DNA of 64,000 bases from Hydractinia symbiolongicarpus (lineage: Eukaryota > Cnidaria > Hydrozoa > Anthoathecata > Hydractiniidae). The stretch's first letter is position 1, and the number at the start of each line of letters is the position of its first letter. Positions 11,403 through 63,910 of the stretch are shown in pieces. The stretch covers positions 26,635,828 to 26,699,827 of the forward strand of contig NC_079876.1 in the NCBI RefSeq assembly GCF_029227915.1, in the 5' to 3' direction. The notes below the pieces were generated by a model. It saw only the letters and a list, made by a program, of their open reading frames with translations, searched no databases and had not been told where the DNA came from. The position numbers were made by a program, and so were the translations under genes.

Positions 11403-11555
11403 CCTTATTGGTAAAAAAAAAGTCGGCAAAAAGTGACCAAATTTTGGCTAGGTGACTAAATTTTTTACCGACCAATTTTTTTACCGACATTTTTTTTGCC
11501 GACCGAAAATTTTTACCGACTTTTTTTACCGACTAGTAATATTTGCCGATTTTTT
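11403..11555 (+). repeat. Left terminal inverted repeat and subterminal repeats of the pogo-like element
   Basis: Starts ccttattggtaaaaaaaaag and then carries five or more copies of a (t)ttaccgac/tttgccgac motif in A/T-rich spacer. Such clustered motifs are typical transposase binding sites; that role is inferred. Confidence 0.75.
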
Positions 11556-13514: not shown

Positions 13515-13725
13515 TGTTTTTATTGATAAAGTGATGAAACAGAAAAGTTACATAATTTGATTTAACTCCTTCGCGCCTTAATTGAAATCGATCGTCTTTT
13601 GTTTTTATAACGTAACAACAAAGGTGGAGAGCAACTTATTATGTCACGATAGATTTCGAAAGCATTCGAATGTTCGAACGTGTTTTTTTGCACTCATTTT
13701 TTTCACAAGGCAAGTTCGTTGATTC

Positions 13726-14323
13726 ATGTTCGTAGAAATATGCCTTCATTCGACAGAAAGATTGCAGCCAGAGGTTATCATGTTTACAAGAACACAACGT
13801 GGAAAAATGCTGAAGCAGGTCAAAAAGTCCAAGTACAAATTGAGACTAACAAATCGTCCAAAGAATGTGATCCTTATATGTGCCATTAAAATAAAGAATA
13901 ATTTCTTTGACAACTGGATGACTGTTGGGCACATTCCAAGGGAAATTTCACGCCACTGTTTTTATTTCATCAAAGAAGGTGGAAGTATTTCTGGTGAATT
14001 GCTCTCCACCAACTACAAAGTGTCCCCGATCCCTGCAGGAGGACTTGAAGTACCGCTTTTACTTACTTTTACAGTGAAAGAAGACAGAATTTTTTTTCTA
14101 ATGAAAGACTATCAACAACCTATACGACTATGATTACACTGGCGAGAAGGAAGACAAAAAAAACGACGGAAGTGATGACGACGGCGAGAGTGACGACGAC
14201 GAAATTGATATTGTTATTAACAATGATAAGGCAGAAGGGAGTGTTGAAGAAGAGAAAAATGATGAAAATGAAGAAGAAGATAATGCGAAGGAGCCGGGAG
14301 ATGTCCAAAATATTATTGATTAA
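13726..14323 (+). pseudogene. HIRAN-like accessory gene of the pogo-like element
   Basis: Reading across two small shifts gives RGYHVYKNTTWKNAEAGQKV, then DNWMTVGHIPREISRHCFYF, GGSISGELLS, GGLEVPLLLTF, and an acidic tail of Asp/Glu runs (DDDGESDDDE, EEEKNDENEEE) ending at TAA 14321-14323. The GY-x-VY start, VGH-(I/L)-PREISR motif and GG-(L/M)-E-(V/I)-P motif are those of HIRAN domains, which bind DNA 3' ends or damaged DNA in HLTF/Rad5-type proteins. The gene is divergent from the transposase with about 200 bp between them, and lies inside the inverted repeats, so it travels with the element. It may help repair or target the ends; that is inference. Confidence 0.7.
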
Positions 14324-14397
14324 AATCATTAATACAGATGTTATTGAAATAGATTAGATTGTTGTAAAATCTTTGTTCTCTTTTAATTCAGCGGTGT

Positions 14398-14540
14398 CAA
14401 AAAAGTCGGCAATAAGTGACCAATATTAAAAAAATTAACCGGTAAAAAGTGACTAATTTTTGCTAAGTGACTAACTTTTTTGCCGACTAAATTTTTTGCC
14501 GACTTTTTTTTACACCGACTTTTTTTTTTTACCGATAAGG
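14398..14540 (+). repeat. Right terminal inverted repeat and subterminal repeats of the pogo-like element
   Basis: Mirrors 11403-11555: gtcggcaataagtgaccaat, then gtgactaac, ttttgccgac repeats and a final ttttaccgataagg before the TA duplication. Confidence 0.75.
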
Positions 14541-14542
14541 TA

Positions 14543-15350
14543 ATACAAACTAGTGGCAACTATAAATCATTTAGGCACACTAGCAGCAGGTCATTATTGG
14601 GAATTTATTAAAGATCGGAATGTAAACGACAGGGCAGTAGTTTAGGTTAAGCCATGTGAGATAAATATCAAACAGTGTATGTGTTGTTCTTTCTCAAGCT
14701 GTGAAAACGCAAGTTTCGCTTTGCAAAAGGGGGAGGATTTGTTTTCTTAGCAGTTTTATTACCTTAGCTGTTATTTTCACCGGCAGCCTACCTTAATTAA
14801 TCAAAAGAAGTCTTGTCTTTGGGTATGACGGCCCCACTTTAACCCCAGTGCAGTGAGGAGGCCAAGTTTTCTCACTTTGTCTACAGTGTTAACGATCCTA
14901 ATGTACCCACAGTTATTGTTAGAAGAAGCTTTGCAAGGGGATTTAAAATGTCTTTTTCAGGTCTTCAGGTCTCCCATTTTACCCCAGTAACTTCAGGCTG
15001 GTCCTGACATATAGGGCTGTTCCCAAGCGTCAATCATCTGTGTAAGGCTGAGTGTTAAGCTCCCGTAACACATGGAAAGCTACTGCCAGGTTTACAAGTC
15101 CCGGCGCATGGGTGGCTGTCTGCTCTTATTTATAGTTATACTTTTTTGTTCTTTCTATGTTGTATACTACTATGTAACTGTCAGAAGGTGTTTGTTATGC
15201 ATTGTGTAGAGAGGGTCTTTAGTTTAGTTACCTTGATTCTGCAGACTATCCTTGTAAAATGGGAGATCTTGCATTAAATATAGATCTGTGTAACCTCTAT
15301 AATTCAAAAAAAGAGTCAGTAGACGAGTTCCATCATTGCAGCTTGCTGTT
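14543..15350 (+). repeat. USP pseudogene 3' end plus retroelement 3' UTR (family B)
   Basis: The first ~110 bp resume the USP domain broken by the pogo-like element: VATINHLGTLAAGHYWEFIK then a CNDRAVV-like end, the catalytic His box. The 3' UTR then follows with the module cttgtctttgggtatgacgg and tgtgtaaggctgagtgtt (15039-15056), ending in the tail tcattgcagcttgctgtttt (to about 15350). The same module order is seen at 26493-27150 and 48424-48985. Confidence 0.75.
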
Positions 15351-15606
15351 TTGTTATCTCACAATCAATTAATTGAATATGTTCAACTGCAAAATTTTGC
15401 TTTTCTTTAAAGAATTTCGACCAATCAGTTAAATCAGTTGGGTTTGGCATATCAGCTTTGAGTTTCAATGGGACTGATGGAAGCATTCTTTCTACAACGG
15501 TTTCAAAATTCTGCTTTTTTGTAAGTTTTTTAAAATCTATATGAATATGTGTGTCACTAATGTCATCCTCTGTCAATATGATACACTTATGATTGAATAG
15601 AGTCAA
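15316..15606 (-). pseudogene. Coding fragment of a hAT-like(?) gene next to a retroelement 3' end
   Basis: Minus-strand frame of 96 codons with PNPTDLTDWSKFFKEKQNFA and a terminal CEITKQQAAMM just where the retroelement tail begins. An equivalent reading, GTDFTSIDDFF followed by ENEVTKQLAVMI, occurs on the minus strand at about 27140-27300, also directly abutting a tail of the same retroelement family. I therefore infer a shared gene family interrupted at the same site twice. The family itself is not certain; beyond the 26-27 kb copy lies a hAT-like stretch. Confidence 0.4.
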
Positions 15607-16235: not shown

Positions 16236-17054
16236 TTGTGTAAACATTTTTTTTTTATTTATTTATTCTGTAGACTTTCTGTCAGCAAAACAACCTCAAA
16301 GTTAGGCGAAGCATTTGTAGGTGTTCTTCAAAGTTTGGCTGTTTCTAGAAGTCCAGTTGATCCCTCCCATTTTTTGCGTCCTATGAAACATCATATCTCA
16401 GCTGCGAAGGGAAGTGCATTTAATATCTTTGCTCAGCACGACGTCCCCGAGGTTCTTGAATATCTCCTACCTGGTCTGTCATTAGACTTTCCATTTCTTG
16501 GAAGTCTTTTTAGTATTGGCATCAAGACATCAACCACTTGCAATTCATGTCATATTACCAGCTCCTCAGAAGTTATATCACCATGCATCCAACTTTCTTT
16601 GCACCCTACGTCACAATCTTCCTTAGATAATTTCTTCGAAAGCGAGGAGTTGTCAGACACCAATGCCTACTTCTGCCATGTTTGCAACGCTCATCAAACT
16701 GCTCTAGTTGAAAAAGAAGTAGTGTTGTGCGGTTCCCATCTCATTTTACAGCTAAAACGTTTTGCCAGTGCCAACGGCCTTGTGTCAAAAATTGCCTCTC
16801 GTATTACTGCTTACCCTGGTACCTTTTCCATACCTTTAACCGTAGATGGAGAAGTGAAATTTCGTAAACATTTCCAATTAAGGGCTATTATCAACCATTG
16901 CGGCAACTTAAATAATGGTCACTACACAACCATAGCCTTCGACCAAATGGTACACAGGTGGATACGTTGCAACGATAGAGCAGTAATTTTCTGTGATGAC
17001 CGCCTTATTAACAGTCACGAGTCATATGTTTTCTTTTTAGAAGAGCTGAGATAG
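16236..17054 (+). CDS. Ubiquitin-specific protease (C19) domain, N-terminally truncated retroelement copy
   Basis: An open 272-codon frame that retains most of a USP catalytic domain. SPVDPSHFLRP and FAQHDVPEVLEYLL correspond to the linker and QQD box (here Ala-Gln-His-Asp). Two paired-Cys zinc ribbons follow (CNSCH; CHVCNAH), then HLILQLKRFA, the catalytic His box NHCGNLNNGHYTTIAF, and RCNDRAVIF. The Cys box NKGNTCYAN is missing, so the peptide cannot be catalytic as it stands. A T-rich stretch ending ttattctgtag at 16262-16274 looks like a splice acceptor, so the true coding start may be at about 16275 and this could be an exon. I prefer a 5'-truncated retroelement because a tripled 3' UTR block and a family tail follow. 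The frame is intact, which hints at a fairly young copy. Confidence 0.8.
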   Translation: MCKHFFFIYLFCRLSVSKTTSKLGEAFVGVLQSLAVSRSPVDPSHFLRPMKHHISAAKGSAFNIFAQHDVPEVLEYLLPGLSLDFPFLGSLFSIGIKTSTTCNSCHITSSSEVISPCIQLSLHPTSQSSLDNFFESEELSDTNAYFCHVCNAHQTALVEKEVVLCGSHLILQLKRFASANGLVSKIASRITAYPGTFSIPLTVDGEVKFRKHFQLRAIINHCGNLNNGHYTTIAFDQMVHRWIRCNDRAVIFCDDRLINSHESYVFFLEELR

Positions 17055-17076
17055 AATATTTTAACTGGAATGAGTC

Positions 17077-17356
17077 AGCAAGGGGGCTTGACTACACTCA
17101 GTCTTGTCTTTGGAAAGTGACGACTCCACTTATTACCCCAGTCAAAAATAAAACAAAATCAAATAAAAATTAAGTTAGCAAGGGGGTTTGATCATACTAG
17201 GTCTTGTCTTTGGAGAGTGACGACTCCACTTATTACCCCAGTTAAAAAATAAATAAATAAAAAAATAAATGAAAAATAAAAAAAATATTAGCAGGGGGGT
17301 TTGATCACACATGATCTTGTCTTTGGAGAGTAACGACTCCACTTATTACCTGAGTT
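17077..17356 (+). repeat. Three tandem copies of the 3' UTR block of the USP retroelement
   Basis: Units start at about 17077, 17177 and 17289. Each begins agcaagggggyttga, continues cttgtctttggagagtgacg and ends ttattaccccagt, with A-rich spacers of growing length. The intact element at 48424 and the copy at 26493 have one such unit. Confidence 0.9.
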
Positions 17357-25380: not shown

Positions 25381-26105
25381 AGCTTCAGCTTCCCAACCTG
25401 TGTAGTTTACACGTTCAAAGGCTTGAACTCTTTTACAGCGGCTTCAAGAACACATTTGCCAAAATGAGCCGATTCCTCAGAATATTTTGCTAACTCCTCG
25501 ATTTGGTCAACACCATATGAAGCATTGGCTGACCAGTTTTTTATATCAATCCATAGCATGTTTTTAAAGACGGGGTTTTCAAAATCGTCAAATTTGTGTA
25601 GAAATATTGTTTTTAAGTTGGCTAAGGCATTTTTTTTAAACGAGACCTCTATTGCTTTTTTGTCTAATCCCGTCATAACCAAGAATGGTATAGTTATTCT
25701 CTCTTTATCACTATTCGAACGATGTTTGTCCTCCACTTTTTTAAAAATGATGAAGATAGCTCTCCGTCAATGACACGGAATGAGGCACGGGGTGACTTGA
25801 AAGCGTATCTTCGTCAATAGTGTCTTGGATGTTTAAAGCTACTTCACTAACGATTGAGGAAACATTATCTCACGCGGTTATGATTGCAGGCCACCGTGAA
25901 AGAAGTCGAGTAAACACAGTTCTGCGATGGCCTACAAATCTAATCCCTCTAACTTCTAGGTGACAACAAGTGGTTCTGCCCCCAGTGTTCATCGCATCAA
26001 GAAGCCGCAATTGAAACTCAGATTTCTAATTGCGGTAACTTCCTTGCCGTACAATTGTTAAGATCACATCAGTAAATAAGTCTTCTTTTAAAGACAACAA
26101 GTTGT
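25380..26105 (-). pseudogene. hAT-like (ZNF862/KIAA1586-type) transposase relic
   Basis: Minus-strand readings give RFVGHRRTVFTRLLSRWPAI with a VSSIVSEVALNIQDTIDED continuation, then the frame 25736-25407 (ITIPFLVMTGLDKKAIEVSF; FENPVFKNMLWIDIKNWSAN; VDQIEELAKY; EAAVKEFKPLN). The R-W-V-G-(H/R)-R ... RW-P pattern and the LD-(I/L)-KNW block fit hAT-derived proteins. The reading is cut at about 26110 by a 5'-truncated USP retroelement and seems to resume at about 27140. Recognition is moderate. Confidence 0.4.
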
Positions 26106-27150
26106 CAATTGCTTGCTTAAAAAACATCATGTCCTAAAGGTACCATCTCACCCAACTGACGATGTGTCTTTCAACAACAAGTACAACTTGGTTGCTACCA
26201 TTAACCACTCAGGTACATTGGGCCTTCATGAAGGACCAACAAAACACCTGGTTCAAATGCAACGATCGCTGTATTTCTCAAGCAGACACATTCCACTTGA
26301 ATAATTCTTCGTCATACATACTTTTCTTCTCCAAAGGTTAACTTATTTGTATGTCACATAACAAATGGGGGAGGGAATCCATGACCCTAGCGATTTTATT
26401 TGCCCCAGCTGATTATTATGATTAGGTTGCTCAGTGCACCATGAAGCCGGGTTTGCTCACTCCTCTCTTTGTATAGAGACACTAAGGAGCACAGCAAGGG
26501 GGCTTGACACCATATCTTGTCTTCGGGCTTGATGATCCCACTTAATACCCCAGTCCAGTAGGAAGACAGAGTTTGCTCCTTTTGCTTTCAGGATTGACAA
26601 TCCTGCTGCCCTTGGTAATTTTAGAAGAAGCTTTGCAATGGGGTTAGATTTTCTTATCTGGTCTTCATCGTGTTACGCCAACGCATATTACCCCAGTTAC
26701 GACAGGCTGGTACTGTCATTAGGCAGGTCCACAGCAACAATTACCTGTGTAAGGCTGAGTGTTGGAGCTCCGTAACGCATGTGGAAAGCTACACCCAGGG
26801 TCCCAAGTCCTGGCGCACAGATAGTTGTTCGCTTTAACTTAAACACGTTTCGTTAAGAAAGATTTTAAATTTAGCTGTTTAAGGATATTCACGTTATGAT
26901 AAGTTTTATTTATCTCATTTGTACCTATTTAATTCATTTCGAATTGCTTTAATATTTATTGTTCTCTGTTGTGTTCTGTCGCTGTTGTATTTTTCTGCCT
27001 CTTTGCGGTCAATGTTTTTAGGAAATCCTTGCAAAAAGGGGTATTTTGCTTTTTTGAAAAATCTTTAGAGGGTTGCACCTTCTAACTATAGTAGAACCAG
27101 CTGTTATTAGAGAAGAATTATCATTACAGCTAGCTGTTTTGTCACCTCAT
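26106..27150 (+). mobile_element. 5'-truncated USP retroelement (family B)
   Basis: Begins with the USP C-terminal end: SHPTDDVSFNNKYNLVATIN then HSGTL (His box), shifted frames giving WFKCNDRCI and NNSSSYILFF at 26250-26335. The 3' UTR follows: block agcaagggggcttgacacc (26493), module tgtgtaaggctgagtgttgg (26746-26765), ccttgcaaaaagggg and the tail attacagctagctgttttgt at about 27133-27152. It lies between two halves of a minus-strand hAT-like relic. Confidence 0.75.
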
Positions 27151-27310
27151 TTTCGATTGCCTTAGCTGCTTGCTTCATTTAGCTTTTTATCTTTCCAGAA
27201 TTTTTTAAAAAATTGCTATAAAAAAATCATCAATGCTAGTAAAATCAGTCCCATTGACTGCATCCTTAACAGAATTTTCAATACGGTAATAGGCACAATG
27301 TATTTTGATA
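27140..27310 (-). pseudogene. Continuation of the interrupted minus-strand relic
   Basis: Reads IENSVKDAVNGTDFTSIDDF then F, and ENEVTKQLAVMI next to the retroelement tail, paralleling 15316-15606. It probably joins to 25380-26105 once the retroelement is discounted. Confidence 0.4.
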
Positions 27311-28703: not shown

Positions 28704-30056
28704 TTACATGTTCTTGACCCTTGAAATGTTTGCATCGTCAACAAAGGAAACGTCTACCTTGGATTGCTGAAAATCTTCGTTCGATTTCACTTCGAGTGGA
28801 ACGAGTTTGTTGATAGGTCGGTTGACGAATAACGTTTTTCCATTGCGTGCGTATCGAACTCTAGCAACTCGAATCTTTCCATCTGAGGAAGGCTTGATAT
28901 TTTCCACAATTCCGACTTTCCATAACGTTCGTGGCCGTTTTTCGTCGTTTATTAACACCATATTTTTCACTCGGATGGTTTCACCACTTCGTTGAAACTT
29001 GGATCGTTTTTGCGATTCGCGTAGATTTAGCAGATATTCGTTGTACCACGATTCCCAAAAATAACGTAAGTTTTTTGAGATATCAACAGATTCTTCGATC
29101 GTATAAGCTTGTGTGTTTAATTTCCTACCAAAGAGTAAGTGATTTGGTGTCAACACTTCGACTCCTGGTTCGTTGTATAAAAATGTTAATGGACGATTGT
29201 TGATTACCACTTCGATTTCCTTGAGAATTGTTAACAATTGCTCGTAATCAACTCTTTTATGTTGCAAATATTTTTTAAGACATCTCGTAGTTGATCGCAC
29301 CATTCTCTCAAACATCCCACCCCACCACGGGGCAGCTGGCAAGTTGAATTTCCATAAAATCTTTTTCTCTGCAGCAAAGAGCTGTGTTTCTTCTGAGATA
29401 AATGGCGAACCATCATCAGATATAATAACATTGGGAACGCCACGTGCACTAAAAAATCGAGATAAGCCACGGATGCATGTAGTCGCGGAATAATCAGGAA
29501 CTAAGTCCAAGTAAATAGCTCTTGTCGAGGCACAAGTAAATAAAAATATCCATGATTTATACATAAGGGTGGCCGCGTCAACAGGAGCGTAGATACTTCG
29601 AACATAAACGGGACCAGCGTAGTCCAGGCCAGTGCAAGTGAAGGCAAAAATGTCGTTAACTCGTGCAGATGGAAGATCAGGTAAAGCTGGATAAGAATAC
29701 GGTTGTCCATCGACAAATTTACAAAGTACGCATTTACGAAGGAGGAGCTTGATGTAATTTCGACATTTAGGAATTCAAAATCGTGATCGTAATTCGTTAA
29801 GTGTTTCGCGTAAACCATTATGTGCAACCGTTGCATGACAAAAATATACTAACAACGCAGTGAACGGATGGTCGGGAGGTAGCAAAATCGGAAATTTAGC
29901 GTTGTAGGAAATCGGTGCATTTTTCAGTCGTCCCTTACATCTATAGATCGTCTTGGAATACACGTAGATCTCGTGACAGTTGGTCAAAATCCGTTTGTTG
30001 CACCAAGGACTGTTGCGTATACCGGATCCATAATCGTTCAGCGTAGGCGAATTCAT
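28704..30056 (-). pseudogene. BEL/Pao integrase region
   Basis: 30056-29775 holds the integrase N-terminal part (LLPPDHPFTALLVYFCHATV then AHNG, a zinc-binding HH-CC-type start). 29564-28704 holds the core (SWIFLFTCASTRAIYLDLVP; FFSARGVPNVIISDDGSPFI; WWGGMFERMVRSTTRCLKKY) and the C-terminal BEL-type domain (NHLLFGRK; RTLWKVGIVENIKPSSDGKI). Frames are split at about 29560 and 29780. Confidence 0.88.
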
Positions 30057-30462
30057 CGTTAGTGATGGTTAAGGAGAGTTGGCGATCCTCTTTCTTCTTC
30101 TTGATATTGTCAATAAATCGAAGTGCGTAGGCGGTGACACGAATCAGTCTTCTTAAAGATCTAAACTTAACAACATTAACGCAAATCAGTTCAATTGGGC
30201 TTACCTGTGTAGTGTGACTTACTAAATGGAGTACCCCCGTCGAAGAATCACTAGAATCTCTACAAACCCAATCAATATCACTACATCCAACAACACGACC
30301 AACTTCAAACCCGCGAAAATCAACATCAGCATTTGACAAAAAAACCGGACCACCGAACCACAAATTACTGTCCTTTAACTCTGACAACAAACAACCTCTT
30401 GAGATGATATCTGCAGGGTTTTCAGTGGACGTAACATGATACCAAGAGGAAATACAAACCAC

Positions 30463-31868
30463 TTAGCGAATTTTATCAACACGGCGCTGAATATATGGCT
30501 CATAACGCTTCTGGTGATTTGTGATCCATGACAAAACAATCGTTGAGTCAGACCAACAGTAAACTTTAGATATCGGTAGAAGCGATGACAAGTGGTTAAA
30601 AATAACATCGATGTGGGTACTTAATAACCAGCATGCTTGTAACTCGAGACGAGGTATGGTTGGCGGTTTGAAAGGAGCGATTCGAGATTGTGATGATACC
30701 AATATGACACGACAATGACCCAACGCATCAATCAAACGCAAGTATGTGCAACAACCGTAACCCTTCTGGCTAGCATCACAAAATCCATGGAGTTCAACCA
30801 ATGACGCATTTCGAAAATCACCATACCATCTTGAGACACACACCTCCAAACTACCCCTCATATCCTTAATAATGGCTTCCCATTCAACCAACAAGTCTGC
30901 CGACAACCTGTCCTCCCACGAAAGTTTAGCTTAACAAACACGTTGAAACAAGACCTAGATATAACTGGATTATTGATGCCTACTGTATCGTATATCGAGG
31001 CTGTATATCGTGATAATTCTCTCTTGGTTGGTATGCTGGACACTGAAGATAAAAGCTCCTCCATAGAGAGGTTTATAATGTCGGTATCTTTGTGCCAGGT
31101 CAATCCTAACACTTTCGTAACATGATTGGATGATGGTCGATTGTTAACCATAAACTCTAAAGATTCGGAATTTGATTCAAATTTGCGTAAATGAAATGAC
31201 GCCTCGGCCAATCGTGATTTGCATGTGTTGAAAAATTTATAAGCTTGACTATCGTTATCTGCACCACTAGTTAAATCATCCACGTGTAACGATTTCAAAA
31301 ACGATGAAGCGAAATCCGGGTCAGAATTATCGTACGAATGAGCGTGAATAATCAGAGTGCTCGATAATAAAAACGGCGACGATGTTAATCCGAAAGCTAA
31401 ACGACAAATGCGATAGCTGCAAAGTTGAGCGTCCATGATGTTACTCGGAGTTACACTGTCAATATCTTCAAAATAAATGAATCTAACGAACTCGCGAAAT
31501 TCTGAGTCTAACTCAATCTTTAGAAAGGCCTTTTCGATGTCGGCGATAAAAGCAATTCTTTCGGCTCGAAAACGCAATAAAACTCCTAGTAGCGGCTCAG
31601 TCAAAGTAGGTCCTGGATGAAGACATTCGTTAAGAGATGACCCGTATGTTCTAGCGCTAGCGTCAAATACGATCCTTACTTTAGTCGTTGTTTTGTCCAC
31701 GCGTACAACCGGACGATGGGGTAAATAATGCGCTTTTTGCCAGGGAAGTTCTGTACCAATTTTTTCAATGATATTCTTATCGAGTTGTTCCTTTAGTATC
31801 GAGTTGTAATTACTTAAAAGAGAATCATCTTGAGCTAGCTTATCTCTCAAACGGAAAAATCGATTCAA
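30463..31868 (-). pseudogene. BEL/Pao reverse transcriptase and RNase H
   Basis: 31868-30858 carries RT motifs: HRPVVRVDKTTTKVRIVFDA, IADIEKAFLKIELD, FGLTSSPFLL and the active site LHVDDLTSG (His in place of the usual Tyr of YVDD). 30906-30463 carries an RNase H-like region, LHGFCDASQKGYGCC and WSDSTIVLSWI, with the first and third acidic residues. The two frames overlap by about 50 bp, implying one shift. A stretch 30462-29941 continues with the linker to integrase (WYHVTSTENPADIISRGCLL). Confidence 0.9.
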
Positions 31869-42691: not shown

Positions 42692-43328
42692 TATTTTGAT
42701 AATAAATTAGATTATAATAAGTCAAAGTTTGTTGTGCTTTTTATTTCCCGCTATTATTCAGAAGCATTCTGCCATTATGAAACTTGAAGTTACGTCATTT
42801 ATGTTCAACTTGATTGGCTTAAATTTTAATGTTCACGTGAACAAAGCGTGTACAACAACAACTTTGGGAAGGCGCTTGTTTAAGAAAAAATATAATGGAT
42901 AGTAAGAACAAATTGAACTTTCGCAACATTTCCACGAACCCTTAACTTCTGAGAAATATTTAGTAGAGTTATTTAGCTATCAGAAAAAGTGAGCCGAAAC
43001 CCAGTAAATCACCCAAAGAAATGCTATAATTGGCGTAAAATAGCGGTTTTTTATGATTATTGTACTTTTATTAATTTATACATCAGTTCCTCAGTTTGTA
43101 AACGTGAGAGGCCATGATGTTTAACCTTATTTATACTGAACCGCAACTTGAGAATGTAGCATAGCTAGCGAATATGCCTTGAAAGCCTAAAAGTACGATT
43201 TGTTATAATACTCCTAGAAGACAGTCCCGAAGTGGAAAGATGCAGGTGCATACAAAAACTTAGCCGTCTATGGTCACACTTTCAATAAAAAAAAGAGCGC
43301 GCTTATAGCATTTCTCTGACGCAAATTA
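42692..43328. other. No gene recognised
   Basis: Spacer between the start of the minus-strand TE-like gene and the retroelement repeat. If the gene is transcribed its promoter would lie here, but no element is recognisable. Confidence 0.4.
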
Positions 43329-43616
43329 TGACATATACATTTTTTCCATTTGTGTTTGTTCTGTAACCACAGTCCGTTTATGTTGTTAGATCTGTCTTGT
43401 GTCGTATTGTTTGTGATTGAAGGATTGTTTTTTCTCTTTAAGATTTTCTCAGTGAATAGTTATAGGTCCAAGTTGGACAGTACTCAGGCTTGTAATAAGC
43501 AAGAAAGTGTATTCAGCACCTTCTTCTGGGAGCCTAATCCCAATTTTATTTACATCCACCGTCCCTGTAGACAAGATACTTCAGTGCAGCTTGCTGTATT
43601 GTAAACCTTTTTCATC
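43329..43616 (+). repeat. 288-bp direct repeat, left copy
   Basis: Identical by eye to 48698-48985 over its whole length, from tgacatatacattttttcca to gtaaacctttttcatc. The right copy is the 3'-terminal part of the retroelement, so the left copy is either the end of another, 5'-truncated copy lying head to tail, or a terminal-repeat-like structure. Confidence 0.93.
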
Positions 43617-43643
43617 TTATTGTTGACCGCAATGGTTTCAACC

Positions 43644-43719
43644 TGACACTGGGAAAGACTAGTGACACTGGGAAAGACTAGGGACACTGGGAGAGACTAG
43701 TGACACTGGGAAAGACCGG
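43644..43719 (+). repeat. 19-bp tandem repeat in the retroelement 5' UTR, four units
   Basis: Units tgacactgggaaagactag start at 43644, 43663, 43682 and 43701, the third with a gag variant. They lie between the left 288-bp repeat and the start codon at 43965. Confidence 0.92.
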
Positions 43720-43964
43720 TAAACTGTTTGCAACTGGATCGACATGACCGTTTTAAAGGACTCGATTGTGTATACTGATTTTGATTTTATTATAACCGGA
43801 CCCTAATCCACGGTACGCGTCAACGGATGAATGGCTAATGGGTTAATTAGTCGCTAGCGAATCCTCACAGTCTTGGTGCCGCTGTGAAAACTATAGCCTT
43901 ACCCTGTGCGCCAGGCAACGCAGGGCTGACAATCTTATCCTGTGCATAATCAACCCCTATAGTT

Positions 43965-46900
43965 ATGACTTCTTTTATACCCAACTTCGAAAAGAATCAT
44001 TGCAATAAACAAAATGATACAGTACTCCAAAAGCACTTGATGAAAAGCTGTAAAGTTGTTTTGGAGGATGTTTGTTCTCTCAGTGGTGCTGAAAAGCTTA
44101 AGATCACAATCTCTACTTCGGTTTCATCCCACAAAAGTAAATTGTGTCACACGGAAAAAAACAAACTTCAGAACCTCGATGAGAAAGCCCCCATTCTATG
44201 GGGTAAGATGAATGATAAGCGTTGGAGTGACTTAGACAGTGCTGTGCATAGCAAGCTAAAGGCTTGTACCAATCTATCCATTTCTGAGAAAGTTAAAACA
44301 CTCGAAACTTTAATTTACGAAGAGGCTTCAAAAATATTTGGTTGCCGCTCCTCAAATAAAACAAAAAACATTGCCAGTATTAACAGGCGTACAATACGTT
44401 CCATTAATCTGGTTAAGGAGAAAAATGTTCTGTTAGCGCAGATTGCCTCATCAACCATCAAGGAGGAACTAACTGCCTTGCAAGAACTGTTGCAACAAGT
44501 TCGAATAAAAATAAGGGTGATGCGTCGAGGTGAGAAACGCAGAAGAAGAAAGTGGAGCTTTAAGAACGCCCAAAAGGTTTTTAGGAATGATCCCTACAAA
44601 GCAGGAAAGGACCTGCTTAACCCTAAATCAGATATTCGTCTTTGTGTTGAACAGTCTGTTCTGGACAACCATAAATTATCTAGCTTATCTGATAATTTTC
44701 ACGACTCTTCTCTTCCCCTTCTTCCAGGTCTTCCACCACCTCCGCAGATCAAGAAAGCTTTCTCAGCCACATCTTTCAAATTTTCTGATTTCGCAAGTGT
44801 TTTATATACGCGTAGGAACGCCTCAGCTCCTGGGCTAAATGGCATATCTTACAAAGTGTACAAAAAATGTACGAAAATTTCATCCTTCTTGTTTAATGTA
44901 TTTAAGTGTTGTTTAAAAAATTGTGTTGTGCCTCTTCAATGGCGTCATGCCAAAGAAATTTACATTCCCAAATCCAAAACTCCTGTACCATCTAACCTAA
45001 AAGATTTTCGACCTATAGCCCTCCTAAATGTCGAAGGAAAATTATTTTTTAGTATTTTTTCAAGGCGACTAGAAACACATGTCATCCATAACAATAAGTT
45101 TATTAACACGTCTGTTCAAAAGGGGTGCATGGCGAATGTTCCTGGCTGTTGGGAACACATGTCGTCAATCTGGGCAGCTTTAAAAGATGCACGCTCTGCA
45201 AGAACTGATCTTGCCACCATTTGGTTGGATATCGCAAGTGCGTATCCCTCAATACCGCACAGATTAATCTTTTTTGCTTTGGAAAGGTATGGTATATCTC
45301 CTAGTTGGATTGCCATTGTAAAGGGTTACTATTCTGGGCTGTACAGCAAATCATTCTCCAAATCTGCTCCAAGCAATTGGCACCAGCACTTCAGGGGCAT
45401 CTTCGCTGGCTGCACCCTGTCTATCGTCTTGTTTTTATCAGGCATAAATGTTATTTTGGAGTATACGCTGGCAACATCTGTGTCATGCTACATCACCTCT
45501 AACAGAGTATCCTTACCTTTAATAAGGGCTTTTATGGACGACATAAACATCATGTCTTCTTCTGTTGCTGGAACACAAGTACTCCTTAACAGGTGCACCA
45601 CAGCTCTAAGTTGGGCCAATATGACATTTCGCGCTGAAAAATCCCGTAGTTTTGTGATCATCAAGGGGAGATCTATCAATAGCACCCCTTTTAGTGTAAG
45701 TAGCCCTGAAAACGACATTGATTTCTCACAGTATATCCCATCTATTCATGCCTCGCCAGTGCGATTTTTAGGCCGGATTATTGATTGTTCTATCTCAGAC
45801 AGGAAGTCCATCAACGAATTGGAGGAAAAGCTGATAGAAGGGCTTGGTGTCATTAATAAGTCCTTATACACTGGAGCGCAAAAACTTTGGATCTTGCAAC
45901 ATCTTTTGATCCCGCGAATTCAGTGGCCACTGTTAATATACGAGGTCTCGATGTCTGTTGCTGGGCGCCTAGAGCAAAAGGTTTCAGTGTTCATACGAAA
46001 ATGGCTGAACTTACACCGTTCCATCACAAACATTTCCCTATATGCTGACTCCTCTCCTTGCCCTCTGCCCATTAAGAGCCTCACTTCTATTTTAAAATCC
46101 GCAAAGATTAGCGGCCACCTACTTTTGCGTCACTCCAAAGATCCGATTCTGTCAACACTCGATCCATCTTTAAAGGCAGGTTCTTGGAAGGTGAGCGATG
46201 CAGTTAACATAGCTGAGGGTGAATTAAAGTACAAGACCATAAGGGGTCCTGTACAGCGTGGACGAACCGGTCTTGGCATTTGTAAAGTGGAAGTAATACC
46301 ACCAAAAACCACTCACAAGTACAGAAAGTTAATCGCAAAAACATCGGCTGAGATTGACGAGGAAAGCTATCTATCTAAGGCACTGCAACTTCAGGTGCAG
46401 GGCCAATGGACAAGATGGGAGAACTACGTAAAGTTTGATCTTTCATGGAAGAACATCCTAGCAACTCCTCCTAATCTCTTATCTTTCTGCCTGCAATCCA
46501 CTTACGATGTTCTGCCATCACCAAGTAACCTAAGGAGGTGGAAAATAAATACAGAACCATCATGTTTCCTATGTCACAAAGAAATTTGCACTTCTGCTCA
46601 CATTCTTGGTGCTTGTAAAACTGCTCTTTCCCAGGGTAGATATACCTTTAGACACGATTCTGTACTTACCCATTTGGTAGAAACTTTGAAAAAGTTCATT
46701 TTTGAGCTTCCTTCTGAACCTCCTAAAAATTGTCAAAAAATAACCTTTCTGAGAGCCGGGTCAAAGGCACATACAAAATCTAAAGTGTCAGGTATACTGC
46801 ACCTTACCAAAGATTGGAAGATTGTTGCTGACACACACTCGAACTATGTGTTTCCTAGCCATATTGCCATTTCTGAGCTTAAACCGGACCTTGTGTTATA

Positions 46901-48230
46901 TTCAAATGACCTTAAGCGCGTTATTATTGTAGAACTCACTTGCCCATGTGAGGAAAACATGAATGCTTGGCACTCCACAAAAGTTGCCAAATATTCCTGT
47001 TTAATGAATGTGATTATGGTTAATGGCTGGCAAGTTGATTTCTTCGCAGTGGAAGTAGGAGCAAGAGGATATTGTGCAAGAACCACCACTGCCTGTTTAA
47101 AAAGAATGGGTTTCACCAACAAACTTGCTTATTCCACTGCAAATGATCTCGGTAAAATCAGTATGAGGTCTTCTTTTTGTATTTGGCTGGCACGTGAATC
47201 CAATGTTTGGTCAACTGACTCCTTAATGCAATTACCCAAATCCAAGCAGGCTTTGCCCATTGTGGAGACCAAGGGTGTTTCATCTCGCCGAAAGGGGCCA
47301 TCTAAAAAGGTTAGCCAAAATAAAAATGACACTCAACCAATTAGTGTCTATAAAAACATCGGTTTTTTAAACAAAGGCAACACTTGTTACGCCAACGCCA
47401 TTTTGCAAGTATTAAGTACCATTCCAACACTCTGGTGCCAGAGTGGGTCAGAATCGTTTCATTTATCACCTATTGCGAGGTCTATTTCGCTTAACATGGC
47501 GAAGCTGAAGCAATCATTGTCACCTGTTGACCCTTCGAATTTTCTCTGGGCCCTTGAACGTCAAATGCACTCTGATGGGAAACTGGACTTCCAATTTAAT
47601 ACTCAGCAAGATGTAGCAGAGATTTTGTTTGTGGTTTTGGACGCCCTTAAGGGATTTTCCCCGATTGCTGCAGATAAAATCTCAACTGAAATCTCAATGT
47701 CCGTAAGCTGTAACACCTGCCTGTGCACCTCGGTAAATGTCGAAATGCAGGACATTTTAACACTGCCAATGACATCTAAAATCCAATCTTGTGTCAGCAA
47801 ATTTTTAGAACCGGAAATTCTAACTGATGGAAACAAGTGGTTTTGTCCGCAATGCTTTGCACATAGAGAGAGTACTAGAGAAACGCAAATCAGCAGGAGT
47901 AGTGAAATCTTATTCCTGCATCTTAAAAGGTTTTTAAAACATGGTGAACATCTGGTAAAAGACAACAGAGTTGTTGAATGTGTTTCTTTACGTGACTCTC
48001 TCCTGCAACTACCTCTCGTCAGTGATACGGACACAATGTTTAATCAGAACTACTCATTGTTAGCAACAATTAATCACTCCGGTACATTAACCGCAGGTCA
48101 TTATTGGGCTTATGTTAAGGATCCTGCCACAAATTCTTGGTACCACTGCAATGATAGAGCGGTTTGCAAATGCTCTCCACCTATTCTCAACAACAATTCA
48201 TGTTATATTCTTTGTTACGTTCGCTGTTGA
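43965..48230 (+). CDS. Reverse transcriptase / restriction-like endonuclease / ubiquitin-specific protease polyprotein
   Basis: 1421 residues in one frame. About 1-280: basic N-terminal region (MRRGEKRRRRKWSFKNAQKV at ~185-205), with no clear zinc finger. About 285-600: RT, with APGLNGISYKVYK, LKDFRPIALLNVEGKLF, TIWLDIASAYPSIPH (first Asp) and the active site FMDDINIM at about 523. About 865-883: CCHC knuckle CFLCHKEICTSAHILGAC. About 970-1010: endonuclease core LKPDLVLY then VIIVELTCPCEENM, the PD...E-x-T pattern of R2/NeSL-type enzymes. About 1130-1421: C19 protease with Cys box FLNKGNTCYANAILQVL (Cys ~1140), QQD box FNTQQDVAEIL (~1210), two paired-Cys ribbons (SCNTCLC; FCPQCFA), LFLHLKRFL, and His box TINHSGTLTAGHYWAYV (~1377), then WYHCNDRAV. 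Catalytic Cys, His and the distal NDR Asp are all present. Known NeSL elements carry an unrelated Ulp1-type protease; the USP may process the polyprotein or remove host ubiquitin (inference). Confidence 0.93.
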   Translation: MTSFIPNFEKNHCNKQNDTVLQKHLMKSCKVVLEDVCSLSGAEKLKITISTSVSSHKSKLCHTEKNKLQNLDEKAPILWGKMNDKRWSDLDSAVHSKLKACTNLSISEKVKTLETLIYEEASKIFGCRSSNKTKNIASINRRTIRSINLVKEKNVLLAQIASSTIKEELTALQELLQQVRIKIRVMRRGEKRRRRKWSFKNAQKVFRNDPYKAGKDLLNPKSDIRLCVEQSVLDNHKLSSLSDNFHDSSLPLLPGLPPPPQIKKAFSATSFKFSDFASVLYTRRNASAPGLNGISYKVYKKCTKISSFLFNVFKCCLKNCVVPLQWRHAKEIYIPKSKTPVPSNLKDFRPIALLNVEGKLFFSIFSRRLETHVIHNNKFINTSVQKGCMANVPGCWEHMSSIWAALKDARSARTDLATIWLDIASAYPSIPHRLIFFALERYGISPSWIAIVKGYYSGLYSKSFSKSAPSNWHQHFRGIFAGCTLSIVLFLSGINVILEYTLATSVSCYITSNRVSLPLIRAFMDDINIMSSSVAGTQVLLNRCTTALSWANMTFRAEKSRSFVIIKGRSINSTPFSVSSPENDIDFSQYIPSIHASPVRFLGRIIDCSISDRKSINELEEKLIEGLGVINKSLYTGAQKLWILQHLLIPRIQWPLLIYEVSMSVAGRLEQKVSVFIRKWLNLHRSITNISLYADSSPCPLPIKSLTSILKSAKISGHLLLRHSKDPILSTLDPSLKAGSWKVSDAVNIAEGELKYKTIRGPVQRGRTGLGICKVEVIPPKTTHKYRKLIAKTSAEIDEESYLSKALQLQVQGQWTRWENYVKFDLSWKNILATPPNLLSFCLQSTYDVLPSPSNLRRWKINTEPSCFLCHKEICTSAHILGACKTALSQGRYTFRHDSVLTHLVETLKKFIFELPSEPPKNCQKITFLRAGSKAHTKSKVSGILHLTKDWKIVADTHSNYVFPSHIAISELKPDLVLYSNDLKRVIIVELTCPCEENMNAWHSTKVAKYSCLMNVIMVNGWQVDFFAVEVGARGYCARTTTACLKRMGFTNKLAYSTANDLGKISMRSSFCIWLARESNVWSTDSLMQLPKSKQALPIVETKGVSSRRKGPSKKVSQNKNDTQPISVYKNIGFLNKGNTCYANAILQVLSTIPTLWCQSGSESFHLSPIARSISLNMAKLKQSLSPVDPSNFLWALERQMHSDGKLDFQFNTQQDVAEILFVVLDALKGFSPIAADKISTEISMSVSCNTCLCTSVNVEMQDILTLPMTSKIQSCVSKFLEPEILTDGNKWFCPQCFAHRESTRETQISRSSEILFLHLKRFLKHGEHLVKDNRVVECVSLRDSLLQLPLVSDTDTMFNQNYSLLATINHSGTLTAGHYWAYVKDPATNSWYHCNDRAVCKCSPPILNNNSCYILCYVRC

Positions 48231-48985
48231 TCCGCTTTTTCTTTCTTTCTTATACATTTATCATTACGTTTATAAAACCTGTACTTCCAGGGTCATGGGG
48301 GAGGAAAATGTAAATCCGAGCGGTTTTATATTACCCCAGCTAGTTCATTCGAACCAGTTTGCCGTCAATACCCAGAGGGTAAAGAGTTCAGCTCACTCTT
48401 CTCTGGTAACTTAAAAGAAGCTTAGCAAGGGGGTTTGCTTTCAGCTTGTCTTTGGGTGTAACGACCCCACTTTTTACCCCAGTTCAGTAAGGTGCCCAAG
48501 TTTACTAACTTGGTCTTCAGGCTTGACAACCCTGCTGTCCTTAGTCAAAATATGTACAGGCTGGTCCTGTCATGACAACCTCCTGTGTAAGGCTGAGTGT
48601 TGGGGCCCTGTAACACATGTGGAAAGCTACAGCCAGAGTCACAAGTTCTGGCGCACAGGAGGGTTTTATATAATTCTTTTTTTATATTATATATTTTTGA
48701 CATATACATTTTTTCCATTTGTGTTTGTTCTGTAACCACAGTCCGTTTATGTTGTTAGATCTGTCTTGTGTCGTATTGTTTGTGATTGAAGGATTGTTTT
48801 TTCTCTTTAAGATTTTCTCAGTGAATAGTTATAGGTCCAAGTTGGACAGTACTCAGGCTTGTAATAAGCAAGAAAGTGTATTCAGCACCTTCTTCTGGGA
48901 GCCTAATCCCAATTTTATTTACATCCACCGTCCCTGTAGACAAGATACTTCAGTGCAGCTTGCTGTATTGTAAACCTTTTTCATC
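48231..48985 (+). repeat. 3' UTR of the retrotransposon with conserved module
   Basis: Contains agcaagggggtttgctttca (48424), cgaccccactttttacccca, tgtgtaaggctgagtgttgg (48584-48603), the segment through acatgtggaaagctac and ctggcgcacagg (ends ~48659), then the 288-bp tail. The same blocks in the same order appear at 14700-15350 and 26493-27150, including in diverged copies, suggesting an RNA element recognised by the RT. No AATAAA signal is needed for target-primed insertion. Confidence 0.85.
48698..48985 (+). repeat. 288-bp direct repeat, right copy
   Basis: Identical to 43329-43616. It ends in ttcagtgcagcttgctgtat then tgtaaacctttttcatc, comparable with the tails cattgcagcttgctgttttg at 15336-15355 and cattacagctagctgttttg at 27132-27151. 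Confidence 0.93.
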
Positions 48986-50985
48986 AAAGTGCGAAGTTTT
49001 AGGTAGGCGATACGACCTTAGACATGCCTTAGCTCACATGAGTTGGAAATCATTTTGCCTGAAAATAGAAATAGTTATCAACATTAAAACAATTAAACTG
49101 CGTGTGTGAATTAAACTTCCTAATTTAATTAATGTCCAGATAAAGATAATCACTGGAAACTTTTCTTTTTAGAAAGTTTGCAGGAATAAACTTTCAACAA
49201 TTTGTGTTCTGTGTATTTTTTTAAATTCTTTGTTATAAAACGATTGAAAAAAAGGTGTAAATAAACTTTCTCTTTTCTTTTAAAATAATTTTTTTTGCAA
49301 GAATAAACATTCACAGTTGTTCAGACTTCCCAGCGTTGCAACACAAACCTACCAGCATAATTGCAAAAGCCTAAACCCACGTACAGGGTTGTTACTATTA
49401 TTATTACTACTCTCTTCCAATGGGTTCGACAATACACAGCTTAGTAGCTATAGTTACGAAGAATTTTACCAATAAAATAAATAAGAAAACAGTTAAACTT
49501 TGCCTAGCTAGCTATTAGTTAATACAGTACTGCAGCTTGGGAAACATTTCCCTGGTAATAAGCTAAGGAATGCAGGCATAAATCTCTTCAAGTTGGCAAA
49601 TTTTCTGTACTTAAAACAGGAAGTACTCAAAGTGAATTTAATAAGGCTTTCACCATAGGCTTTCTAAATAAATAATGGCTACTTAGAAAAAATATATTTT
49701 ACTTTACATTATGATCACAACCCTCTTAAATGCATAACAGTTTATCCCCTTTTTCAATTCTCAATAGGAGCTTTGTAGCAAAAGGAAGATATCTTTAAAA
49801 AATGCTTATCTGTAACTGTGAACTCGTGTATTCTCAAGAAAACCAAGCATTGAAAAACATTTTGTTTATAAGGGTTCTCTTGCTTATTAAGAAGTCACAT
49901 TGTTTATATGATAATGAAATTTGGCAATACAAGTCAAAATCACCATTTTTTTCTTTTCCTCTGATATAAAGCAGTTTTTTGTTAAAATGTAAACATTAAT
50001 GGAAGAATAGTTTTGTTTTGTTTACGCGCTGAAAAAACAATTTCTTGTACGAGTAGTATCAGTATTCTTAAAAAGTGTTAAAGCTTAAAGGTTAATTTGA
50101 AATTTCTTACTTTTTACACTATGCTTTGTTAATCTTGTGGCTACAATCCCGGTCAAAAATAATGGCAGTAAACCCTTTTTACACGTATAGCAAGAGCAAG
50201 ATAAGTACAAAGCCCCCTTTTCCCCAGTATCAATAAACCAGTTAGCTAGCCAACTTTATTTAAAAATTATAACAAATCTAATTGCAGTAAAATAAGCAGC
50301 TTACTTACTAAAAACTGCATTTAAAAATGTATTCTAGCTAGTTATTATGATATCTTTCTGTACCATACAACCTAAAACTTTCACACTTCAGAACAACCTA
50401 ACTTCCTTTTAAAACTGCTTTCTCACTTAAACCAAAATACAAAACGTGGTACAACGTATAAATTATGTTTTTCTCGATATTTGTAAATGTATATCCCAAG
50501 CAACCTACTTCCTTCGTTCACTTTCCTGAATTTCAAAAACTTACGGCTGCTTTGGTCGTCAAGGGAAACTTAGATTTTTCGAGAAATAGAATTACTCTAT
50601 TTTGATCACGTGATTTTGTCCAGCAAATGAATATGTTTTATGTTGATCAAATGGCATAAAATGTAAACAAAGAAAAACTCGCGGCATTTCTCAGCAAAAA
50701 AGACATGTCAGGCACATGCCAAATATGGTGTTTTCATTTATACCCTGAGCGTCAGATGTATGAAAGAATTGAGATGCCCTGAGCGTCAGGCCCATCGGCA
50801 TGTCCTGAGCGTCAGGCCTATCGGTGAACACATGTATACATGCCCTGAGCGTCAGGTAATGACTTTTATCAACATATTACTTCCATAGCCTAGTGACCTA
50901 ATAAATATCGGCAATGCTAGTACATCAATTTCTAAAACATTGTGAATTAAGTGAATATATCTGCGACAACAGTGGCTAGACCAAA
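48986..50985. other. No gene recognised; AT-rich with short palindromic repeats
   Basis: Long intron-like or intergenic spacer. Four copies of a palindromic 13-14-mer lie at 50743-50856. Confidence 0.5.
50743..50856 (+). repeat. Four spaced copies of palindrome ccctgagcgtcagg
   Basis: Copies at 50743-50755, 50777-50790, 50804-50816 and 50843-50856. The core cctgagcgtcagg has 5-bp complementary arms (cctga/tcagg) around gcg. Copies 2 and 3 share the extension c(c/t)atcgg; spacers vary from 13 to 26 bp. Confidence 0.9.
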
Positions 50986-54065: not shown

Positions 54066-56581
54066 AGACTGGTGAATCTTCAAAATCTCTTATCGAACCA
54101 TCCAAATCTACTGTTGAACAACCTACTGAAAATAAATCTGACGAAAAGGTAGTGGAAGTTGATCATATCCTTGAAGCTGATGTGATTAATATGATGAATA
54201 CTGATGATTCAGTAAATGATGGTGCTTTACAATTTCCTGAAGTGAACAATGCGAACATTGATTCATTTGATATAGGAAATTTGGTGAACAATGTTGCAAA
54301 AAAGGTCACTGAAAAATTAGCTTTTTTAAATTCTGTTTGGATGCCTGATGAAAACTTTCATTACCCAATCTCAAATCGACGTTTCATTCATTCTTGGTTG
54401 ACTTCTTATCCATGGTTATGTTACTCAAAAATCCATGATGGGGCATTTTGCATAAATTGTGTGATGTTCCATAATAACTCACAAAATGTTGGGAAAATGG
54501 AAAAATTGTGCAAGGAACCATTAGGAGATTGGAAAAATGCAAAGGCTTTACTTGAAAAACACCACCATAAATCTCCACATCATAAAAAGTCTGTTGTAGA
54601 TACAGCAAATTTTAAAGCTACAATGGCATCAACAGACACCAGAATTGATAGGCAGCTCAACAATATTGTGCATGTACAAATTACGAAAAATCGTGTTGTA
54701 TTGAAGTCATTGATCAAGATTCTCATTACAATGGCTCAACAATGAATTTCGTTAAGAGGTCGTGATGAGACAGATCCAACTGCACACTTTCAATCTAAAG
54801 AGAATGTAATGAGCAATTTGAGAGTCTTGGTAATTAGTAGTACTTGGTAATCCTGGTAATTTTCTGGCTTTTGTGAAACTAGCAGTAGAGTTGGAATGCC
54901 CTGCTTTGAAGGAACACATGAGTAACTGTGCCAAAAATGCTATTTATTTGTCAAAAACTATTTAAAATGAACTCCTATCTCTTATTGCAAAAAACATTGT
55001 CACCCAAGTAGTTGCACAAAAAAAAACGATCTAAGTATTTCTCTGTTCTTGGCGATGAGGCAGTAGATATAAGCAACAAAGAACAGATGCCAGTTGTGTT
55101 GCGATATATTGACAGTAAAGATGAAATTAGAGAGACATTTTTAAAGATGGCAGAATGTAAACTTGGTTTTCTGGTAAAGGGCTGTCAATTACAATAATTG
55201 ATGCTGTGGAGCAAAACAACTTGGACATGAATTATTGTAGGGGACAAGGCTATGATGGAGCAGGTTAAAATCTGATACAAATAACCATGTTTATCATTAG
55301 CTATCCATATATTTTTATCTTCATTTTGTTCTATTTTTTCAGGTGCAATGGCTGGAAAATGTTCAGGAGCATCCACATTGATTAAGAACCTATGTGTTGC
55401 AGCTGGCTGTAAGCTCCCCATGGTTGCTGATATGATGTCACAGTTTCAAGCAGTGGCATTGTTTTTTTACTGCTCGCCTGTCAGAACTCATGTCCTGAAA
55501 GGTGTCATAGAGGCTGTGTCACCTGAGATTGTCCATTCAGTAGTTTTGAATATTTGTCGTACAAGATGGGTAGCCAGGCTGGATGGACTTGACTCTTTCT
55601 GTGATTTATTACCATCTGTCATGCTCACTTTGGAGAAAATCACAGAAAATAGAGACAAATCCTTCAGTCGTAGTAACGTGGATGATGCAAGACCACCTTC
55701 TAGGCATAGTTCAGTTTGAATTCATTGCTGTGTTGGTAATTGTTCAAAAGGTTTTGGGTTACACTCGTGGTCTCACTGTGAAATTACAGAGTATTGAGTC
55801 TGATCTTGTTAAAACATCAAGTAACGTGCTTTTGTTGAAACGAACACTGCAAGTGATCAGATCAGATATTGACACCCATTTTAATAAGTGGTATGAAAAA
55901 GTTCTATCTTCAGCTACTGAGCTTGATGTTGTGGAATCAATGAAACGTCGATGCAGCATCCAGTTGTATCGAGAGAACTATGTTGCCAATGGAGTGAAAA
56001 AGTACTACAAATTGGCTGTTGCTATTCCCTTCATCGATCATATATTGCAAGAACTGGACACTAGATTTTCTATTGACAATCTCAGTGTCTACTCTGGTTT
56101 CAGCATCATGCCAACTACCATTCTTTCAGATGAGGGTCGTGTTCTTTTGGGAGACCAACCAACATGGAAAGTTGAATTTTCTAAATTTATTCAGAGATAT
56201 CGTGATGATATTCCTGCTCTGAGTAACTTGTACGCACAGTTAGATATGTGGAAAGTTAAGTGGAGAACATTCACCGGAGTGTTACCTACCACATTGCAAG
56301 GTCTGTTAAAACACACTGACAAACTTTTATTTCCATCGATACATGAAGCGATACGAATTCTAGCTACTATACCTGTCACTACTTGCACCTGTGAGAGGAG
56401 TATTTCAGGTTTACGTCGTGTGAAGACATGGATGAGGAATACAATGACAAAGGAAAGATTGAACAGTCTTAGTGTTATAATGTTCAATCGAGATGTGACT
56501 GTTGATTTAGATCAAGTTGTAGATGAATTTGCAGCTGCTAACAAACGTAGAATGACGTTTTCTAATATTTTTAGTGACTGA
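54066..56581 (+). pseudogene. hAT transposase (P52rIPK/ZMYM-type), frame-broken
   Basis: After the acceptor ttttacag at 54065: an acidic start, then PDENFHYPISNRRFIHSWLT with YPWLCYSKI and GAFCINCVMF (TTF-type zinc finger), H-rich HHHKSPHHKK, FSVLGDEAVDISNKEQM (first catalytic Asp block), a YDGAG|AMAGKCSG junction across a 79-bp GT-AG intron at 55264-55342, ICRTRWVARLD, and the C-terminal dimerisation domain PSIHEAIRILATIPVTTCTC then ERSISGLRRVKTWMR. Frames change near 54740, 55000, 55185 and 55700. The zinc finger and C-terminal region are well preserved. The segment between the STLIKN and LCVAAG readings is short relative to the family. Confidence 0.8.
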
Positions 56582-63263: not shown

Positions 63264-63910
63264 AAGTCATTTAAATGACGTTTCAGGCCAAAATTGGTAT
63301 TTGTTTTTGACAAAATTTGGCACAGTTAACAAAAAAGTATGCTGAACATAATGGTGCCATCTTGATTTTGATTTTTGTCACCTAAATTTCATTTTAGGCC
63401 AAAATTGGTCCAAAAACTAAAACTACTTTATTTTCAACAAAATTTGACACAATTAACGTATGCTGAACATGATGGTAACATCAAAATTTTGGTTTTTTGC
63501 CACCTTAAATGTCATTTTAGGCCAAAATTGGTCCAAAAATTAAAACTACTTCATTTTTAACAAAAATTGGCAAAGTTAAAAAAAAGTATGCTGAACATAA
63601 TGGTGACATCAAAATTTTGATTTTTGTCACCTAAATGCCATTTTAGGCGAAAATTGGTCCAAAAATTAAAACCACTTCATTTTCGGACAAATTTGGCACA
63701 GTTAACAAATAAAGCATGCTGAAAATGATGATGATACAAAAGTTTGATTTTTTGTCACCTAAATGTCATTTCAGGCCAAAATTTGTCCAAAAATTAAAAT
63801 TACTTTATTTTCGACAAAAATTGCCACAGTTAATAAAAAAAGTATGCTGAAAATGATGGTCACATCAAAATTTTGATTTTTTGTCAACTAAATGCCGTTT
63901 AAGACCATAA
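63264..63910 (+). repeat. Tandem array, about five units of roughly 111-128 bp
   Basis: The anchor aggccaaaattggt (or a variant) occurs at about 63285, 63396, 63519, 63645 and 63773. Each unit reads aaatgtcattttagg, then aaaattaaaactactt, aaaaattggcacagttaa, agtatgctgaacataatgg and tcaaaattttgattttt. Units are diverged by several percent and by small indels. The array stops at about 63910. Confidence 0.93.

Follow-up and report, generated by a model that had tools for sequence, protein, structure and literature searches.

A predicted ubiquitin-specific protease at the C-terminus of a restriction-like endonuclease-type non-LTR retrotransposon protein in Hydractinia symbiolongicarpus

The fusion protein and the element that encodes it

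The 64-kb window analysed here (64,000 nucleotides of contig NC_079876.1 from Hydractinia symbiolongicarpus) carries on its plus strand a retrotransposon whose single open reading frame (ORF), of 1421 codons, spans 43965–48230 and is preceded by an in-frame stop at 43947. An earlier note, made from the letters alone, had described this frame as uninterrupted and as joining a reverse transcriptase (RT), a restriction-like endonuclease (RLE) and, at the C-terminus, a ubiquitin-specific protease (USP) of family C19. The frame is indeed open, and the same architecture emerged from Pfam, alignment and AlphaFold2. Pfam placed RVT_1 at residues 334–604 (44964–45776; E 8.3e-16) and UCH (PF00443) at residues 1132–1418 (47358–48218; E 5e-32, covering the full profile, 1–254 of 254), with zf-RVT below the cut-off at residues 823–887, and found neither an integrase nor an Ulp1/C48 domain in the protein. 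All the motifs listed in the earlier note lie where it had put them: FMDD at 523–526 in the RT; the CCHC zinc knuckle C867/C870/H879/C884 (46563–46616), followed by PD 974–975 and ELT 990–992 in the RLE; and, in the USP, the Cys box with C1141, the QQD box at 1214–1216, the His box with H1379, and N1396/D1397. The RLE region, which also includes E990, K1006 and Y1010, was set by alignment and structure match at 46767–47210, with approximate outer limits. The claim of two zinc ribbons had to be modified: the two CxxC pairs are present (C1249/C1252 and C1294/C1297), but they form a single finger.

The AlphaFold2 model of the protein reached a mean predicted local distance difference test (pLDDT) of 84.4, and that of the USP alone 93.2; in structure comparison the models matched R2, through model residues 1–832, and USPs. 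Between RLE and USP lies a disordered linker (47211–47348) of low confidence (model residues 840–880, pLDDT below 50). The RT of long interspersed nuclear element (LINE)/R2 type with its FxDD, the CCHC knuckle followed by a PD..E..K endonuclease, and the 5'-truncated copies in the window mark the element as RLE-type and non-LTR (LTR, long terminal repeat), and the Cys box, QQD box, two-CxxC finger and His box with Asp/Asn identify the C-terminal part as a C19 protease. On the joint evidence of sequence and models, the protein is thus an RLE-type non-LTR retrotransposon protein fused to a USP.

Judged from sequence, the element reaches beyond the ORF on both sides and spans approximately 43329–48985, flanked by two identical copies of a 288-nt direct repeat (43329–43616 and 48698–48985). 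Four insertions of USP elements were seen in the window, all on the plus strand. The three older have lost their 5' part and retain only USP parts and 3' untranslated region (UTR): copy A/B (10774–15354, its pieces at 10774–11400 and 14544–15354 being read as one copy split by a DDE transposon), copy C (16278–17356, its USP part within an open frame at 16236–17054) and copy D (25953–27154, recognised by sequence comparison within the window). Since the 3' UTRs of copies A/B and D are followed by the same block, the 288-nt repeat most likely represents the 3' end of the element itself, the copy at 48698–48985 being the true terminus. A 22-nt part of it, TCANTRCAGCTWGCTGTWTTGT, is found four times in the 64 kb, each time at an element end (shuffle mean 0.00), and allowing three mismatches still returned only those four (shuffle mean 0.04), although this block was derived from the same copies in which it was counted. 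The entire repeat aligned with copy A/B, with a score of 83 that is the highest in the window and above the shuffle maximum of 69. With copy D it scored 64, equal to unrelated places and inside the shuffle range (maximum 75), so that the evidence from copy D consists of the end block, and the sequence that follows copies C and A gave no match.

The 5' repeat, being identical to the element's 3' end, is read from these comparisons as a partial head-to-tail duplication and not as an LTR. End-to-end template jumping, which Bibillo and Eickbush reportedly described in 2004 for the R2 RT, would by analogy produce such a 5' duplication; Zebulon is a tandem element of pufferfish. A long target-site duplication, for which R9 is the comparison case, was rejected as the origin of the repeat, since matching sequence ends copies A/B and D. 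LTRs were also considered, the repeat being readable as TG...CA plus TC, and were judged less likely because no short flanking duplication was found and the protein is of RLE type. Outside the repeats no target duplication was found, the only matches being of 10 nt or less at unmatched distances.

The earlier note had thought a live element possible, and this view holds. The best named match of the protein is P0004, an 853-residue gene model of H. symbiolongicarpus. The two share 97% identity over 780 columns, a span that includes a gap resembling a wrongly predicted intron, and P0004 diverges from the element at its residue 780, ahead of RLE and USP; two further models of the species, P0051 and P0071, are more distant relatives. 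Given this identity and that of the terminal repeats over 288 nt, the element is probably intact and recently inserted, and potentially active. The Hydractinia genome report describes some 60% of the repeats as unclassified and 7% as LINEs (PMC11067881).

Relatives of the element and history of the USP

A first protein search gave 98 matches among 5285 candidates, and a second, profile-based search, in which scoring covered the 7988 candidates with most shared words, contributed the best 120 of 417 matches; many of the family proteins come from short contigs. A USP profile built from 29 aligned proteins matched 71 of P0001–P0094 (the query and 93 matches), two of the 119 new proteins among the best 120 of the second search (P0100 and P0101), as well as three proteins without a fused RT (P0096, P0097 and P0099). 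In the 94-protein alignment, 67 rows cover more than 150 USP residues, and of the 27 others several contain the start of a USP or stop earlier. Gaps excluded, the catalytic Cys is kept in 72/72 rows, the His in 67/72 and the Asp in 64/66, the four zinc cysteines in 66/68, 67/68, 67/67 and 66/66, and D525/D526 of the RT in 87/87, while identity among the USPs falls to as little as 20%. The exceptions to the triad among the 67 rows are P0059, P0079 and P0090; the last, which also entered the Cys count, was rejected as a USP bearer, its row being an alignment artefact in which the USP profile finds none. Two USP-element proteins, P0033 and P0066, are filed under metagenome-assembled genomes of Pseudomonadales, labels that most likely reflect eukaryotic contamination. 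Four members of the USP group (P0039, P0040, P0049 and P0057) have very long N-terminal parts, the core beginning at residue 625–837; in P0039, P0049 and P0057, which were scanned, Pfam named no domain ahead of the RT. Pattern scans for the relatives' DNA gave 29 matches in genome contigs and 20 in viral contigs, none confirmed.

A FastTree of the RT–RLE core, made from 118 of the 198 usable proteins and 790 columns, grouped 73 proteins with a support of 0.995, 62 of them with a USP. Their next neighbours are eight USP-less proteins (P0086–P0089 and P0091–P0094), followed by fish, lancelet, bivalve and other HERO-type proteins. An IQ-TREE of 50 representatives concurred, with a Shimodaira–Hasegawa-like approximate likelihood ratio (SH-aLRT) support of 96 for 28 USP proteins plus five USP-less kin. 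On this tree the USP label requires three changes (at least two by the starred branches), a number reached by none of 500 shuffles, and one gain followed by two losses would fit. Moreover, the RT–RLE and USP distances of the 54 proteins with both correlate with r 0.88 (0/1000 permutations as high), and the USPs borne by transposable elements (TEs), 27 representatives, split with support 100/98 from three USPs taken as cellular. From the QQD box to the first CxxC, the four TE USPs compared are shorter than the three taken as cellular. Among known proteases, cellular USP2, USP8 and USP15 (C19) come closest to the TE USPs, which differ in being part of an RT protein. The few label changes, the correlated distances and the separation of TE USPs with their shared shorter stretch favour, without proving, a single capture long ago, and the fusion is, as far as sequence comparison goes, that of an old, conserved group. 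Independent captures are less favoured than one; caution is due in that P0041 is outermost in the USP tree but inside the main group in the RT tree, and in that the cellular USPs compared were only three.

The trees, built from search-match proteins, place the element on the fish, lancelet and bivalve side, and the named relatives among the best 120 of 417 matches are mostly proteins of these animals. P0126, a Tetraodon polyprotein, is presumably HEROTn or Zebulon, and we therefore take such proteins to be HERO. HERO elements have an N-terminal zinc finger, an RT and an RLE, with nothing past the RLE. The element has the RT–RLE core in common with the HERO-type proteins, and the basal USP members bear similar N-terminal fingers; it differs in that no C2H2-like finger was found ahead of its RT and a USP follows the RLE, whereas the USP profile found none in P0102–P0218, and fully supported branches lie between. 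R2 (PDB 9dou, 9nl3 and 8gh6) is about 20% identical to the element, which adds the C-terminal USP. Taken together, the element most likely belongs to an old RLE-type non-LTR lineage on the HERO-type side.

In R2-like elements, N-terminal fingers help target choice. C2H2/C2HC-like fingers before the RT were found in none of 36 main-group USP proteins (those of P0001–P0064 whose core is preceded by 200 residues or more), again unlike R2, in 9/9 basal kin, including the USP bearers P0065, P0100 and P0101, and in 60/97 HERO-type proteins; P0041, a tenth basal kin, fell outside the count, presumably for its short N-terminus. It therefore seems, from this distribution, that the USP was gained first and the fingers were lost later within the USP group. 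The P0086 group, with fingers in 0/5, indicates that fingers can be lost also without a USP.

Nematode NeSL and Utopia-1_TSP are RLE-type non-LTR elements with an N-terminal Ulp1-like protease (PMC4640811). The earlier note had compared the element with such Ulp1 bearers, which likewise combine an RLE-type element with a cysteine protease removing ubiquitin or ubiquitin-like proteins; its comparison needs the correction that their protease (C48) is N-terminal, while the USP (C19) is C-terminal. Given the other fold and the opposite protein end, the USP was most likely gained independently of the NeSL protease. Neither a C-terminal USP fusion nor any other joining of a USP/UCH with a non-LTR element was met in the literature searched, which left Repbase and most subscription journals outside, and the word "ubiquitin" is absent from the main text of the Hydractinia and Hydra genome papers.

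A parallel case is offered by P0121, P0133, P0141 and P0171, HERO-type RT–RLE proteins of one tree group that carry a NADAR domain at the C-terminus; three of the four were scanned with Pfam, which gave E values of 8e-26 to 3e-33. Here, too, an enzyme-like domain directly follows the RLE, at the very spot of the USP, but it is NADAR and sits on a separate tree branch. This parallel gain strengthens the view that the position after the RLE takes up enzymes, and suggests that such uptake is repeated, the enzymes possibly acting on modification systems of the host. The C-terminus of Prp8 bears a deubiquitinase-type Jab1/MPN domain, reported inactive; as its protease fold is another one, the resemblance is convergent at most and serves as an analogy only. 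Prp8 also combines an RT with an RLE-like domain (PMC5678591).

Possible roles of the USP

Why a LINE should carry an enzyme that removes ubiquitin or ubiquitin-like proteins is, to our knowledge, an open question. It gains weight here, where a deubiquitinase of another fold seems to have been acquired independently at the opposite protein end, with an active site kept across a diverse group and accompanied in the main group by the loss of DNA-reading fingers. The intact copy lies in Hydractinia, a genus with laboratory models, which makes the question testable. Sequence and models support the fusion, the RT, RLE and USP folds, the kept catalytic residues and the other copies, and favour one gain; the enzymatic activity of the USP, its substrate and a cis-protective role are what we infer from them.

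Insertion would proceed, by inference from R2, through target-primed reverse transcription, in which the RLE nicks the DNA and the RT starts copying at the 3' end of the element RNA. The USP, presumably a working deubiquitinase on a flexible linker, would act in cis, stripping ubiquitin from the protein–RNA assembly of the element itself or from proteins at the nick, and the complex would thereby be spared proteasome marking or removal before insertion is completed. This reading, an intact copy of an old HERO-side lineage with most likely one USP gain and a cis-acting protective deubiquitinase, ranks first among those considered and seems to us about evenly balanced between right and wrong. 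Several observations weigh against it. P0059 and P0079 have a USP in which part of the triad is missing in the alignment. Six long proteins (P0067, P0072 and P0074–P0077) end 1–32 residues past the RLE match and look like true USP absences, Pfam finding no UCH in P0067, P0072 and P0077, so that the USP would be dispensable in some relatives. The USP diverges faster than the RT–RLE core (mean identity 0.32 vs 0.51), a difference that is compatible, too, with an arms race or with weak constraint. Finally, the observations fit self-protection, chromatin targets and host factors alike.

The earlier note had itself suggested that the USP removes ubiquitin at the insertion site or from restriction factors. 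For the former, the USP could deubiquitylate chromatin or repair proteins at the target (H2A/H2B, PCNA or similar) and so open the site or block repair; some of the targeting once done by the lost N-terminal fingers may also have passed to it. This is a tentative alternative that we consider possible and rank second, although USP folds are too similar for a substrate to be inferred, no nucleosome-binding extension was seen, and the absence of fingers in the USP-less P0086 group implies that finger loss may mean merely relaxed target choice.

Somewhat less probable, and third in rank, is a trans action of the USP against a restriction factor or immune signal of the host, as presumed for many viral deubiquitinases. 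The faster evolution of the USP would agree with this, as would the finding that giant-virus USP-like proteins are the top viral structure matches (among 58 viral models with E <=0.001, not only USPs); however, the USP is tethered to the RT and not free, which favours action close to the complex. A more specific version of target action, doubtful in our estimate, makes the USP a targeting module that docks on ubiquitylated nucleosomes or on a ubiquitylated replication or repair factor and deubiquitylates it while the RLE nicks. If true, this would be a retrotransposon reading a protein mark and not a DNA sequence, its fingers having been dropped after the USP gain.

The other proposal of the earlier note, polyprotein processing, did not survive well. 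A protease within a polyprotein-like ORF invites the idea that it matures the retrotransposon protein itself, and viral proteases often do both. USPs, however, cleave after ubiquitin, and Pfam found no ubiquitin-like domain above the cut-off in the 1421-residue protein (APG12 being sub-threshold, E 0.042). The RLE–USP linkers of 29 members, 38–88 residues long, contain Gly-Gly in 1/29 and R-x-GG in 0/29, and in R2 the full-length RT–RLE protein is already the working form, all of which makes self-processing very improbable. Least credible of all is the idea of a passenger, a domain taken from the host and retained only as harmless cargo: even though USP-less relatives exist, neutral drift would not have kept the Cys/His/Asp triad and the four zinc cysteines nearly always intact at such divergence.

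Untranslated regions and neighbouring elements

The 5' leader (43617–43964) contains a 19-bp tandem repeat of 3.8 copies at 43644–43716 and, at 43903–43914, a 12-nt stretch complementary to 48648–48659 in the 3' UTR, the sole match listed when lengths of 9 to 16 nt were searched. It would pair with the end of an 85-nt block (48578–48662) of the inner 3' UTR (48231–48697), parts of which are common to the older copies, so that a 5'–3' pairing is possible from sequence alone. The block recurs at 26740–26824 and 15036–15118, and the three copies are 80–86% alike. A cloverleaf-like fold of four helices is possible, with 96% of cells pairing in the three copies; within column shuffles of these three sequences, 101/500 reached as high a pairing and 109/500 as high a covariation, and folding was better than in shuffles in the intact copy only (z -2.9, the others being +0.2 and +0.2). 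These comparisons are only suggestive of a conserved folded RNA, which is possibly a part recognised by the RT. Rfam gave no known ribozyme or RNA family at gathering score in the window, and in 43000–49200 a single, chance-level match (DicF, E 2.1). In copy C, the 3' UTR includes three tandem copies, at 17077–17356, of a module of about 66–83 nt, of the type GCAAGGGGG...CTTGTCTTTGG...CCCCAGT, with fewer repeats in the other copies.

The DNA transposon inside copy A/B (approximately 11404–14495) has a DDE_1 domain at 12200–12862 on the minus strand and ACCGAC-type repeats at its ends. Elsewhere in the window, remnants of an LTR-type element lie at 28704–31865 (minus), with DUF5641, an rve integrase and a fragment of RVT_1 that narrowly misses the cut-off; an open frame with a hAT dimerisation domain lies at 55583–56578, and a satellite-like tandem array of 4.6 copies of a 128-bp unit at 63310–63907.

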